A stretch of DNA of 64,000 bases from Flavobacteriaceae bacterium PS02337 (GTDB lineage: Bacteria; Bacteroidota; Bacteroidia; Flavobacteriales; Flavobacteriaceae), in the NCBI GenBank assembly GCA_029959285.1, contig JASCOE010000001.1:620001-684000 (forward strand), given 5' to 3'. Below are positions 54,870-60,046 of the stretch, one piece after another. A program made the position numbers and the translations under genes. Each line of letters starts with the position of its first letter. The first letter of the stretch is position 1. The notes beneath the pieces are model-generated. The model did no database searches. It had not been told where the DNA came from and saw only the letters and a list, made by a program, of their open reading frames with translations.

Positions 54870-55260
54870 TTCAAAGTTGCTAAGATTCTAAGAGGCTAAT
54901 TTTTAGTATGTCAGGCTGAGCGAAGTCGAAGCCCTTTGCCAACTTTTCGGTTATTTTTTTGAAGCAGAAATCTTCGGCTTTTTCAAGATCCGACATTCCT
55001 GCCATCCGCTATATCTTTTCCTGGCTAAAGAAGCCAGAAAAAGGATGCCGCTTCTGTCAGGGCTAGTAAGAAAATATCTTTTTTATAAGATTCTAAGATA
55101 CTAAGAATCTGAGTTGCTAAGAGAAAATCTGCACAATCAGCTAAATCTGTGAGAGATATTTTTTTGTGCTCTTTGAATATTATCACAACTGTAAGGAGTT
55201 ATTTCTTTGCGATCTTTGCGTAAAACCTTTGCGAACTTTGCGGTTAAATCACGACCAGTA
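54870..55260. repeat. Repeat-filled 390-bp spacer between rplY and pth
   Basis: No gene. Contents in order: TCTAAG-type repeats, one half of the composite inner hairpin (GTCAGGCTGAGCGAAGTCGA at 54910-54929), a hairpin block 54991-55065 with CATCCGCTATATCTTTTCC and GGATGCCGC arms around a CTGGCT/AGCCAG stem, more CTAAGA repeats, and CTTTGCG repeats at 55206-55245. Confidence 0.75.
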
Positions 55261-56133: not shown

Positions 56134-56745
56134 ATGGCTTTTGAATTACCACAATTACCTTATGCATACGATGCATTAGAACCACATATTGATGCTCGTA
56201 CAATGGAAATCCATCATACAAAGCACCACAATGCATATACTACAAATCTTAATGCTGCAATTGCAGGAACAGATTTAGAAGGAAAAACAATCGAAAATAT
56301 CTTAATCAACTTAGATAAATCTAATGCAGCAGTTCGTAACAATGGTGGAGGTTTTTACAACCACAATTTATTCTGGACTGTAATGTCTCCAAATGGAGGA
56401 GGATTGCCAACTGGTGATTTATTAGCGGCAATCGAAGCTTCTTTTGGAACTTTCGAAGAATTTAAAGCAAAATTTGCTAAAGCTGGTGCTACACAATTCG
56501 GTTCTGGATGGGCTTGGTTAACAGTTCAAAAAGGAGGAAAATTAGAAGTTGTAGGTACTCCAAATCAAGATAATCCATTAATGCCAGAAGTTGCTGGTAA
56601 TGGTGGAACTCCAATCTTAGGAATGGACGTTTGGGAACACGCTTACTACTTAAACTACCAAAACAGAAGACCAGATTATATTGAAGCTTTCTTCAGTGTA
56701 ATTAACTGGACAGAAGTTGCTAGAAGATTTGCTTTAGACAAATAG
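56134..56745 (+). CDS. Superoxide dismutase (Fe/Mn family)
   Basis: A 203-residue Fe/Mn SOD: metal ligands in [12 protein letters not shown] (first His), GFYNHNLFW (second His) and [19 protein letters not shown] (Asp and third His), plus FGSGWAWL. The protein has no signal peptide, so it acts in the cytoplasm. Iron or manganese preference cannot be decided by eye. Single gene with its own promoter and a strong terminator. Confidence 0.95.
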
Positions 56746-56807: not shown

Positions 56808-57179
56808 TTACCACTTTCCGAAGAAACTGTTGATGTCAAAATAATATTTTACGGCTTCTCCTTTTTCATTTGTCAAATTTAGAACATCGTAATGTTTCTT
56901 TCCTTCGCTTATTAAAGCTTGTCCGTTTATTTTGCAATTAGGGCAAAGCTTTTTCGCAATTTGATACTCTTCGGCAATACTTTTTACTTTAATGGCATTT
57001 TTTACAGAACTACCTGCTTCATTCGAGTCTTTATTAAAAGATGCTTCTTTCTCAGAGGTTGAGCTATTTTTGTTTGCAATAGAAGTGCTAGCAAGTGTGT
57101 TTTTAGGTTTAGCACCAGAACAGTTGAAAAGAAATAAACTGAATAAAACGATTAAAGAAATTTTAGAAAATTGTTTCAT
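56808..57179 (-). CDS. Small lipoprotein of unknown function
   Basis: A 123-residue protein with lipobox LFNCS at about 16-20, a Ser/Asn-rich linker and a C-terminal segment with two cysteines (AKKLCPNCKINGQALI), which could be a metal or redox site. It is followed by the sod-side terminator and has the tandem sRNA-like array just upstream. Function unknown. Confidence 0.75.
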   Translation of the reverse strand: MKQFSKISLIVLFSLFLFNCSGAKPKNTLASTSIANKNSSTSEKEASFNKDSNEAGSSVKNAIKVKSIAEEYQIAKKLCPNCKINGQALISEGKKHYDVLNLTNEKGEAVKYYFDINSFFGKW

Positions 57180-57222
57180 AGGGTGGATTTTAGTTGGACA
57201 ATATTATAAAATTTATTCCAAT

Positions 57223-57292
57223 AAAAAAGGTGGAATCTCTTCCACCTTTTTTGCCCCAAATCTACCATAAACTTAACCTACTAATGTTATGG
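57223..57292 (-). ncRNA. Putative sRNA, array copy 1
   Basis: Conserved hairpin core and terminator stem GGTGGAAGAGATTCCACC plus T-run on the minus strand. Its upstream box is TACCTTTA (57298-57305), a weak -7 match. Confidence 0.5.
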
Positions 57293-57505
57293 TTTAGTAA
57301 AGGTAGGGAGAGATGTTTCGGGGAAAAAACTTTTCAGATGAAATGTACTAATATCCGATAAATGGATTATAATTTATAGCCTTGTCCTTTTAAAGGAAAA
57401 AAGAGAATAAAATAGCCTTTGGAGCATAGAATAAAGAATGTGAAATAAAGAGAATAAGATATTACAAGATAAAGGATTGTTGCTTGAAGTCTATGGAAAT
57501 AAAAT

Positions 57506-57575
57506 AAAAAAGGTGGAATTTCTTCCACCTTTTTTGCCCCAAATCTACCATAAACTTAACCTACTAATGTTATGG
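57506..57575 (-). ncRNA. Putative sRNA, array copy 2
   Basis: Core identical to copy 1; terminator stem GGTGGAAGAAATTCCACC. Upstream box TACTTTTA (57581-57588). Confidence 0.5.
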
Positions 57576-57790
57576 TTTAGTAAAAGTAGTTAAGGATGTT
57601 TCGATTAAAAAAAATTTCAGACGAAATGGACTAATATCCGATAAATGGAATATAATTTATTGTCTTGTCCTGTTAAAGGAAAAATGGGAATAAAATAGCC
57701 TGTAAAAGAGTAAAATAAGGAATGTAGAACAAAGAGGATAGGATATCAAATATAAAAGATTATTTTTTCAAACCTTATAAGGAAAAAAAT

Positions 57791-57860
57791 AAAAAAGGTG
57801 GAATCTCTTCCACCTTTTTTGCCCCAAATCTACCATAAACTTAACCTACTAATGTTATGG
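57791..57860 (-). ncRNA. Putative sRNA, array copy 3
   Basis: Core identical to the others; terminator stem GGTGGAAGAGATTCCACC. Upstream box TACTTTTA (57866-57873). Confidence 0.5.
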
Positions 57861-57976
57861 TTTAGTAAAAGTAATGAAGGATATTTCGATTAAAAAAAAA
57901 TTCAGATGAAAGGTAAGTATATCCGATTAAATGAAGTATAATTTGTTGCTTTAGAAATACTTGAGTTTATTCCAAT

Positions 57977-58046
57977 AAAAAAGGTGGTATTTCTACCACC
58001 CTTTTTGCCCCAAATCTACCATAAACTTAACCTACTAATGTTATGG
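57977..58046 (-). ncRNA. Putative sRNA, array copy 4, best promoter
   Basis: Core identical. Upstream it has TTG (58080-58082), 20-bp spacer and TACTTTTG (58052-58059), a full consensus promoter. The terminator stem reads GGTGGTAGAAATACCACC: both sides changed together relative to copies 1-3, which keeps the pairing. Confidence 0.6.
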
Positions 58047-58147
58047 TATCTCAAAAGTATCATTGCTTTTCAATTTTACCAAACAAACAGGATGAACGGC
58101 AAAAAAAACCGATGAAATGCACAAATTAACCTTTTATTAATACTTTT

Positions 58148-60046
58148 TTAATAAGCTCTAGCGTCTTTTCCTTCGTAAAAATTCATAAAAGCACGATTTA
58201 CGACACGATTTCCACCTGGAGTTGGGTAATCTCCAGTGAAATACCAGTCACCTAAATTTTTAGGACATGCAATATGAAGATCTTCTACCGTTTGGAAGGT
58301 TATTTTTACTTCGGCATTGATTTCTGGAGAGCTTAACATTTCTGCTATTTTATCTGAAATCTCTTCATTTGTAAATTGATCGTAAATTTCTGTTACATAA
58401 TTTACAACATCATTATCTGAGAAATTTTCTTGTGCCTTACATTTTGCATAAACTTGATCTACAATATGATAAAGGTTTCTTTCTTTTAATAATGCAAGAG
58501 CTGCTCTAAAAGCAACTAAACCTTCCAATTTCGCCATATCAATTCCGTAACAATCTGGGTAACGAATTTGTGGTGCAGATGAAACAATTACAATACGTTT
58601 TGGATTTAAGCGATCCATCATTTTTATAATGCTCATTTTTAATGTAGTACCACGAACAATACTATCGTCAATAATAACCAAATTATCTTCTGGTTTAATT
58701 ACGCCATAAGTAACATCGTAAACGTGAGCAACTAAATCGTCACGGCTGCTGTCTTCGGTAATAAAGGTTCTAAGTTTAGCATCTTTAATTGCTACTTTTT
58801 CTGTACGTATTTTTACAGCCAAAAGTTCCTGAAGTGTGTCAGCAGTTAATGTATTTCTGTTTTCTAAAATATAATTGTTTTTTCTCTGATTCAAGAAATC
58901 CTGAGCAGCTTCTACTAAACCATAAAATGATGTTTCGGCTGTGTTTGGAATATATGAGAAAACGGTATTGTCTGTATCGCTGTCAATTGCTTTAAGAACA
59001 GCAGGTAAAATTAATTTACCTAAATCTTTACGTTCTTGGTAGATTTCAGCATCACTTCCTCTTGAGAAATAAATTCTTTCAAAAGAACAAGCTTTTTTAA
59101 CTGTCGGTTCCAAGATTTGTTTCATAGAAACATTTCCATTTTTCTTGATAATCAAAGCATTTCCTGGATCAATTTCTTGAACACTTTCAAAAGGTACATT
59201 AAATACAGTTTGAATAACAGGTCTTTCTGAAGCTACAACTACAACTTCGTCATCTTGATAAAAGTAAGCTGGACGAATTCCTGCAGGATCTCTAAAAACA
59301 AAAGCATCACCGTGACCTAATAAACCAGCCATTGCATAACCTCCGTCTAAGTTTTTAGCGGAACGCGCTAAGATTTTTGCAATATCCAAACGCTCTGCAA
59401 TTACTGGAGAAGCTTCTCTTTTAGAATATCCTTCTGCTTTGCAATCTTGATATAATTGCATTACTTCTTTATCTAAGAAATGACCAATTTTTTCCATTAC
59501 AGTAACAGTATCCGCCATTTCTTTTGGGTGCTGTCCTAATTCAACCAAATTTTCGAAAAGCTCTTTAACATTTGTCATGTTAAAGTTTCCAGCTAAAATC
59601 AAGTTGCGGTGCATCCAGTTACTTTGACGTAAAAATGGGTGAACGCTTTCGATGCTATTTTTTCCAAAAGTTCCGTAACGAACGTGTCCTAAAAATAATT
59701 CCCCAACATAAGGAATTTGAGATTTTATTTTTTGAACATCTTCACCAATTTCTGGATTCGCTTTTAATTCTTCGCTAATTCTTTCATTGATCTGTTTAAA
59801 AACATCTTGAATTGGCTGTGCATGATTAGAACGAACTCTGCTTATGTAGCGTTGTCCAGGTTCAACATCCAATTTAATGCTTGCAAAACCAGCTCCGTCT
59901 TGTCCGCGGTTGTGCTGTTTTTCCATCATTAAATACATTTTCTGAATTCCGTAAAATGCAGTTCCGTATTTTTCTTTATAATATTCAAGCGGTTTCAGTA
60001 GTCTAACTAAAGCTATTCCACATTCGTGTTTTAAAGCGTCGCTCAT
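58148..60046 (-). CDS. purF: Amidophosphoribosyltransferase (PurF-like)
   Basis: A 632-residue enzyme with a class II glutamine amidotransferase domain (catalytic Cys9 in HECGIALVRL, NRGQDGAG, GHVRYGT, NFNMTN) and a C-terminal phosphoribosyltransferase domain with PRPP loop VIIDDSIVRGTT. It is longer than the E. coli enzyme (505), as is usual for Bacteroidetes. An 8-residue propeptide must be removed to free Cys9, as in the B. subtilis type. First committed step of purine synthesis. Confidence 0.95.
   Translation of the reverse strand: MSDALKHECGIALVRLLKPLEYYKEKYGTAFYGIQKMYLMMEKQHNRGQDGAGFASIKLDVEPGQRYISRVRSNHAQPIQDVFKQINERISEELKANPEIGEDVQKIKSQIPYVGELFLGHVRYGTFGKNSIESVHPFLRQSNWMHRNLILAGNFNMTNVKELFENLVELGQHPKEMADTVTVMEKIGHFLDKEVMQLYQDCKAEGYSKREASPVIAERLDIAKILARSAKNLDGGYAMAGLLGHGDAFVFRDPAGIRPAYFYQDDEVVVVASERPVIQTVFNVPFESVQEIDPGNALIIKKNGNVSMKQILEPTVKKACSFERIYFSRGSDAEIYQERKDLGKLILPAVLKAIDSDTDNTVFSYIPNTAETSFYGLVEAAQDFLNQRKNNYILENRNTLTADTLQELLAVKIRTEKVAIKDAKLRTFITEDSSRDDLVAHVYDVTYGVIKPEDNLVIIDDSIVRGTTLKMSIIKMMDRLNPKRIVIVSSAPQIRYPDCYGIDMAKLEGLVAFRAALALLKERNLYHIVDQVYAKCKAQENFSDNDVVNYVTEIYDQFTNEEISDKIAEMLSSPEINAEVKITFQTVEDLHIACPKNLGDWYFTGDYPTPGGNRVVNRAFMNFYEGKDARAY

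Follow-up and report, generated by a model that had tools for sequence, protein, structure and literature searches.

The array located between purF and sod in the window (the whole stretch of 64,000 nucleotides from Flavobacteriaceae bacterium PS02337 analysed here) consists of four 74-nt units on the minus strand, spans positions 57220-58047, and almost certainly represents a real small RNA (sRNA) family. We slightly favour an explanation in which, in Flavobacterium, a LytTR-type regulator would drive this tandem sRNA and the RNA would block translation of a peptide gene, forming a negative feedback. The family, its structure, its synteny, the shared operator and the conserved complementarity to a target were all computed here; the new elements are the double-repeat LytTR-like operator, the adjoining LytTR, peptide and TPR-kinase genes, and the predicted pairing of the linker before the peptide start. 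Each unit is composed of a hairpin (ACCATAA...TTATGGT), followed by a linker (AGATTTGGGGC) and a terminator. The units, their linkers and the flanking genes are:

58148..60046, minus strand: purF, conserved upstream neighbour of the array (open reading frame; position conserved across loci, see below)
57974..58047, minus strand: sRNA copy 4, nearest purF (hairpin, linker and terminator; model match 102.1 bits, fold z -4.3)
58008..58016, minus strand: linker GATTTGGGG of copy 4, proposed pairing segment (pairing tests)
57788..57861, minus strand: sRNA copy 3 (102.2 bits, fold z -5.1)
57822..57830, minus strand: linker GATTTGGGG of copy 3 (as copy 4)
57503..57576, minus strand: sRNA copy 2 (103.5 bits, fold z -4.5)
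57537..57545, minus strand: linker GATTTGGGG of copy 2 (as copy 4)
57220..57293, minus strand: sRNA copy 1, nearest sod (102.2 bits, fold z -5.1)
57254..57262, minus strand: linker GATTTGGGG of copy 1 (as copy 4)
56134..56745, plus strand: sod, convergent, downstream of the array in many relatives (open reading frame; tblastn)

The core ACCATAACATTAGTAGGTTAAGTTTATGGTAGATTTGGGGC is the same in all four copies, the sequence outside the core differing between them, and the fold energy of every copy is lower than that of shuffled sequences (z -4.3 to -5.1). The terminator stem reads GGTGGAA/TTCCACC in three copies and GGTGGTA/TACCACC in the purF-proximal one. A first-pass annotation, made from the letters alone, had described four minus-strand units with an invariant core and a covarying terminator stem (copies 1-3 against copy 4), and all of this is borne out by our analysis. 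It had also placed the array between sod and purF. Both genes do flank the array, but an ORF of 123 codons (56808-57179, minus strand) intervenes on the sod side; this ORF has a lipoprotein-like start, lies beside the array in few relatives and has no match in Pfam. The statement that the array contains no open reading frame holds in part: mechanical ORFs of 43-92 aa overlap it, but a coding core is argued against by a one-nucleotide indel between genera (GGTAG versus GGTAAG) and by the varying terminators, so that a peptide encoded in the array RNA was dropped as a candidate.

The first-pass annotation had proposed a search of other genomes of the genus. Using one unit as blastn query, we obtained matches in 123 of 150 of them; in one listing of hits, those with E above 1e-8 were set aside. 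A covariance model built from 76 copies (alignment A2, hand-picked from distinct copies plus the window) detected the RNA at E 0.001 in 240 of 299 Flavobacteriaceae genomes, covering 193 of 236 genera, a recurrence which rules out chance as the origin of the array pattern. In an order-wide draw of 296 genomes, 40 matched at E 1e-5 and all 40 are Flavobacteriaceae, at least 10 other members of the family in this draw being without a match. A phylum-level draw gave matches in 19 of 198 genomes, the four outside Flavobacteriaceae being marginal (E 0.0025 to 0.0072). Most hits of model R2 (E up to 0.1, 37 of 40 genomes) represent generic terminators, and such hits were not taken as evidence that the RNA is present. 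Zobellia, Maribacter, Aquimarina, Winogradskyella, Salegentibacter and Flavobacterium species are among the matches listed by a pattern scan, and the phage records searched for the RNA yielded a single match, located in purF.

The genomic place of the RNA is conserved. PurF is encoded upstream on the same strand at 147 of 156 loci (at least 11 of which repeat a genome region already in the set), mostly 70-125 nt from the first RNA and at a few loci up to 771 nt away. There is no PurF match at eight loci, three of which (L116, L123 and L146) are truncated by the limits of the retrieved stretch or of the contig, and L111 was scored otherwise through a stray plus-strand match; others without PurF are second sites, and some of these belong to genomes with an additional array at purF. 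The number of copies per locus is one in 48 loci, two in 49, three in 31, four in 20, five in four, six in two and seven in two, these counts being lower bounds because some loci are cut. The median copy spacing is 204 bp, and all copies lie on one strand at 155 of 156 loci. In the genome of the window, 26 nt of the core (up to three mismatches) were found at the four array places only, and the reversed pattern at no place. A multicopy, tandem arrangement could also be expected of a dispersed DNA repeat or mobile element without RNA function, a reading made extremely improbable by the fixed place after purF, the single orientation, the conserved promoter register and the restriction to four copies in this genome. 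The first-pass annotation had named a dispersed repeat without covariation as the case that would speak against an sRNA; what we found is a core at four places and a terminator that covaries.

Some copies deviate from this pattern. Three diverged arrays beside PurF (L353, L358 and L359), accepted by eye, define a Flavobacterium clade that retains CATTAGTA and TTTGGGGGC, the rest being changed, with units of the form ...CATTAGTAAATTAATTTTTACGGTATTTTTGGGGGC followed by a terminator. Two genomes have one additional copy at a shared site away from purF (L335 and L340), where two neighbour genes are conserved, and one genome has a second, diverged five-unit array besides its purF array (L150 2016-2918, minus strand, and L149). 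Eight non-purF stretches were examined; two represent the same site, hence seven distinct sites. LytTR genes are present near two of these seven: a LytTR regulator and a histidine kinase lie near the RNA at L348, and a Crp-type regulator together with a weak LytTR match (23.1 bits, cut-off 22.6) at L150.

In an alignment of 145 copies (123 distinct rows), which was fitted to the covariance model and so favours the model structure, standard pairs occupy 91.7% of pair cells and 19 of 23 pairs are changed on both sides. The covariation score is 0.411, compared with 0.151 in shuffles and at most 0.093 when slid. This support comes mostly from the terminator, in which 12 of 13 pairs change on both sides. 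Two modelled 5' pairs fail in most of the 123 rows (columns 7-52 in 88 and columns 17-46 in 112), so the loop is larger in most genera than in Flavobacterium; the remaining 5' pairs hold, but with both-side changes in one or two rows at most, and the genus alignment contains one compensatory pair in the 5' stem. The segments AAGTAGGTTAAGTT and GATTTGGGG hardly vary over most of Flavobacteriaceae. Together with the distribution and the promoter register described below, the covariation supports the multicopy small-RNA family that the first-pass annotation had suggested.

None of the array copies matches an Rfam family at the gathering score. Weak matches below gathering (e.g., STnc40 and sraA) cover the whole model, with the best alignment over the terminator, and were rejected. 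The first-pass annotation had raised an identity with Flavo-1 (RF01705) and an Rfam check; this flavobacterial RNA motif does occur once in the window, at 54991-55068 on the minus strand (73.2 bits, gathering 42), between two genes, as the only Rfam sRNA match at the gathering score, which no array copy reaches for this family, so that the identity was rejected. FopS (RF04319) was likewise rejected (18.5-19.1 bits for the copies, gathering 56). As described in the part of the source available to us, FopS of Bacteroides thetaiotaomicron comprises paralogous sRNAs that repress translation by pairing near start codons (PMC11697453). It thus resembles the array RNA as a multicopy sRNA family of the same phylum with start-codon pairing, but FopS has a single-stranded 5' stretch with a 5' seed followed by a terminator, as far as the same part of the source goes, whereas the array RNA begins with a hairpin and its proposed seed is the linker. 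Rfp18 of Flavobacterium psychrophilum is presented, in the available part of PMC9723704, as an sRNA conserved in the genus that pairs through its third stem-loop and has protease targets. Both are Flavobacterium sRNAs and, compared by this partial description, Rfp18 has a third stem-loop versus two stem-loops in the array RNA; the latter may be Rfp18 or another of the F. psychrophilum Rfp RNAs. Parts of four further papers were drawn on (PMC9331221, PMC4847170, PMC6193735, PMC4064291). Searches of the open-licence literature on flavobacterial sRNAs and on peptide signalling in the phylum yielded no description of this RNA or of the gene cassette presented below. Mimicry of the 23S rRNA 5' end was dropped after a test on the 23S gene of this genome.

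Upstream of each copy, we identified a promoter element and a double direct repeat:

58052..58059, minus strand: -7 element TACTTTTG of copy 4 (sequence; register kept in the genus as TAnnTTT)
58088..58121, minus strand: double direct repeat (LytTR-like operator) of copy 4 (matrix score 32.6)
57866..57873, minus strand: -7 element TACTTTTA of copy 3 (sequence)
57902..57935, minus strand: double direct repeat of copy 3 (matrix score 28.1)
57581..57588, minus strand: -7 element TACTTTTA of copy 2 (sequence)
57617..57650, minus strand: double direct repeat of copy 2 (matrix score 23.5)
57298..57305, minus strand: -7 element TACCTTTA of copy 1 (sequence)
57334..57367, minus strand: double direct repeat of copy 1 (matrix score 23.7)

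The promoter TTG-N20-TACTTTTG previously noted at copy 4 is present, and TAnnTTTA occurs at the same position in the other three copies. We compared the upstream regions of 147 genus copies and 132 copies of other genera, anchored at the hairpin and excluding mismatches to the anchor expression, duplicates and N-containing sequences. TAnnTTT is found in exact register in 118 of the 147 and 53 of the 132, and two boxes near -70 and -50 are present in both sets. Identity at an offset of 20 bp is 0.463 in both sets, compared with 0.249-0.349 at the other offsets from 8 to 33. The motif TTN[AG] occupies both boxes in 100/147 genus copies (background mean 0.3%, highest 3.4%) and 54/132 other copies (background mean 0.7%, highest 6.1%); the pair is missing in 47 and 78 copies, respectively. 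The box consensus, GC[AC][GT]TTC[AG]TC, is similar to the site GGCATTTCAT of the Escherichia coli LytTR regulator YpdB, likewise a direct repeat, and to the AlgR site CCGTTCGTC, as given in the parts of the literature available to us, which characterise LytTR sites as repeats of 9-11 nt lying 11-13 nt apart. The array boxes are 20 bp apart start to start, i.e., with a spacer of 11 if the boxes are 9 nt long, at the short edge of this range. The double direct repeat is very probably a LytTR-type operator, as predicted from its sequence. Counted over the whole genome, the operator core TTYATC-N14-TTYATC shows no clear excess (19 versus 13 in the control), nor does the linker complement GCCCCAAATCTAC with up to two mismatches (53 versus 46); the signals of operator and linker appear in position-specific tests only, as opposed to such whole-genome pattern counts. 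In several arrays of other genera (L151-L153, L155-L157 and L220), the upstream sequence of the last copy is a different one (TTTATTTCCCACAATACCAGTAATTTAGT-like) that lacks the double box; individual copies may thus respond to separate inputs.

A matrix derived from the boxes of the genus gave scores of 23.5 to 32.6 for the array copies, the best other site in the window scoring 12.5. Over 400 kb (798,400 positions), 13 sites reach 13, three reach 16.7 and a single one reaches 18; this site (23.7) is located in the promoter of a LytTR gene, G000:C11:321846-322694. The next-best site (17.1; L459 8707, plus strand) lies 143 nt before the gene for a probable secreted protein of this genome. A site scoring 20.7 was found at a second LytTR locus, but within a different ORF and more than 1 kb from the LytTR gene. 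Among 22 Flavobacterium loci of the LytTR orthologue, the box is present at 19, scoring 16.7 to 29.1 and being the best site of each locus; the matrix detected none at L416, L421 and L422, and two of these three genomes retain the box at the array. None of eight LytTR loci of other genera, several of which are distant homologues, has a box detectable with the Flavobacterium matrix. A clade-specific matrix for other genera is weak, with a median training score of 10.2 and similar scores at several places. The receiver carries FLE instead of FLD in the 17 LytTR orthologues, of 20, that were matched by the expression, and those at L421 and L422 also have Glu at this position, which we take to be the phosphorylation site. 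On this sequence evidence, the C11:321846-322694 gene is quite probably the regulator of the RNA in Flavobacterium, the genus to which the evidence for both regulator and target is restricted.

Another regulator could act instead, the operator being common to the array and this gene through a larger regulon or a related LytTR protein, while the linker would still block several mRNAs. We regard this as rather unlikely. In its favour, there are 18 LytTR genes in this genome, array boxes exist in genomes whose LytTR orthologue lacks the box and box-like repeats occur in other genera without a matching LytTR promoter; against it, the only site of at least 18 in 400 kb lies at this very gene and the box is kept at most orthologous Flavobacterium loci.

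The preferred LytTR gene is part of a conserved cassette: class II tRNA synthetase, LytTR, small peptide, TPR kinase and NarL-type regulator, some cassettes having one or two genes in between. This order was found in 10 of 11 regions inspected (L430, L432-L435 and L437-L441), L436 being different. At L430 (4543-8856, minus strand), for instance, the cassette comprises a Glu-receiver LytTR gene, a variable repeat-peptide precursor, a TPR histidine kinase and a NarL-type regulator. In genomes G005, G142 and G010, some 3.8 kb separate the LytTR gene from the RNA, and the cassette in its entirety falls within about 8.5 kb. The peptide precursors, predicted by eye to be secreted, have a common N-terminus (MKKxxLTxGLFSL...TSF type) followed by a variable part, which consists in some of them of repeat units (IDGGAVGGVIKKRD three times; VDLVGGASAGGNKK, IIGQNAAGGNVKVD or AAGQGAVGGSVRLD four times; ETGGKQDPTPTML four times with the last one altered) and in others of a single unit. 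The variable units suggest a species-specific peptide. A role of the peptide as signal is putative, the findings that bear on it being gene order and precursor variability. One precursor has no match in Pfam and four have none in NCBIfam. Related cassettes are present in other genera, e.g., in G181, with at least six CDDCAHDSDDR units. A full-text search of open-licence papers retrieved no description of a peptide-based communication system in this phylum.

The gene for this peptide is also the clearest candidate target of the RNA. We compared the linker with the 30 bases preceding the peptide ATG, at a threshold of -10 kcal/mol and after dropping the repeated loci L432 and L437, which left 21 starts. 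The linker reaches -10 kcal/mol or better at 17 of these 21, versus 14 of 244 background starts; for the reversed linker the numbers are four and seven, respectively, and 150 shuffled linkers reach the threshold at a mean of 0.36 and a maximum of eight peptide starts, none attaining 17. The linker misses this threshold at L412, L410, L418 and L419. In many loci, the nine bases directly before the ATG pair with GAUUUGGGG (e.g., CCTCAGGTC, CCCCAAATT, CCCCAGATT and CCTCAGATC). In a fixed register, 103 of 117 positions pair over 13 distinct nine-mers, a good part of the variation being C/T or A/G with pairing kept; as the loci are related, these and the other counts by locus are not independent. 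Such conserved complementarity to a target start, the criterion for trans-acting base-pairing RNAs, was found in Flavobacterium only: none of six small-peptide candidates of other genera reaches -10, although the linker is invariant there too. The linker GAUUUGGGG is therefore predicted to pair at the peptide start, which we consider probable from these sequence comparisons.

The linker is also predicted to pair at other gene starts of this genome. Among 389 starts (peptide gene included), 24 reach -10, compared with a mean of 6.8 (sd 4.1) for shuffled linkers, 0/150 of which score as high; in mid-ORF stretches the corresponding values are 20 versus 12.1, with 19/150 shuffles as high. The best other candidate starts include those of a 163-aa protein, an 810-aa protein and a regulator-like 209-aa protein. 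The loop, which the first-pass annotation had taken for the target-binding segment, reaches -10 at only nine of the 389 starts (shuffle mean 7.0), a count equalled or exceeded by 45 of 150 shuffled loops. That interpretation thus stands as regards the sRNA family and is not supported for the loop, the linker instead having a conserved candidate target. By analogy with CsrB-type RNAs, which bind protein and whose several copies raise the dose, the loop and linker might be bound by an RNA-binding protein. This is quite improbable. In its favour, the loop is nearly invariant over the family without an antisense signal and there are multiple copies; against it, the linker shows its complementarity mainly at gene starts and at a single target.

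We propose the following circuit as a hypothesis, with transcription, binding, direction of regulation and translational block as steps that we infer. The four units would each be transcribed on their own, as copies of a single base-pairing sRNA about 74 nt long. In Flavobacterium, a LytTR-type response regulator would activate them through the two direct repeats, which are spaced 20 bp apart and lie about 45-75 bp upstream of the RNA. This regulator would likely be the product of G000:C11:321846-322694, which has the same double box in its own promoter and Glu for the usual Asp in its receiver. The single-stranded linker would pair immediately upstream of the start codon in target mRNAs, thereby blocking translation initiation. 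With the secreted-peptide precursor adjoining the regulator as the clearest target, the result would be a negative feedback within a putative peptide-signalling system of LytTR regulator, peptide, TPR kinase and NarL-type regulator.

Regulatory RNAs are outputs of signalling systems elsewhere: AgrA of agr/RNAIII is a LytTR regulator, and the Qrr sRNAs of vibrios exist as several near-identical copies. The array RNA would work like these without being a member of either, since phyla and RNAs are different, and here the copies are arranged in tandem, with the peptide gene itself as the proposed target. It is tentatively conceivable that Flavobacteriaceae have an undescribed form of peptide signalling, a Bacteroidota counterpart of agr/RNAIII or Qrr. 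In this view, identical tandem sRNAs would be driven by a Glu-receiver LytTR protein (possibly phosphorylation-independent) together with a TPR sensor kinase and a species-specific secreted peptide, often encoded as repeats; the sRNAs would in turn exert feedback on the peptide precursor and on other genes of signalling, their dose being set by the number of copies in the array. If the proposed circuit is true, Flavobacteriaceae would possess an sRNA that hardly varies across the family and that comes with a defined pairing segment, a candidate regulator and a candidate target; the circuit would also point to peptide-based communication in the phylum. The tandem copy number, which varies from one to seven, would offer a natural way of testing why a bacterium maintains more than one copy of the same sRNA.
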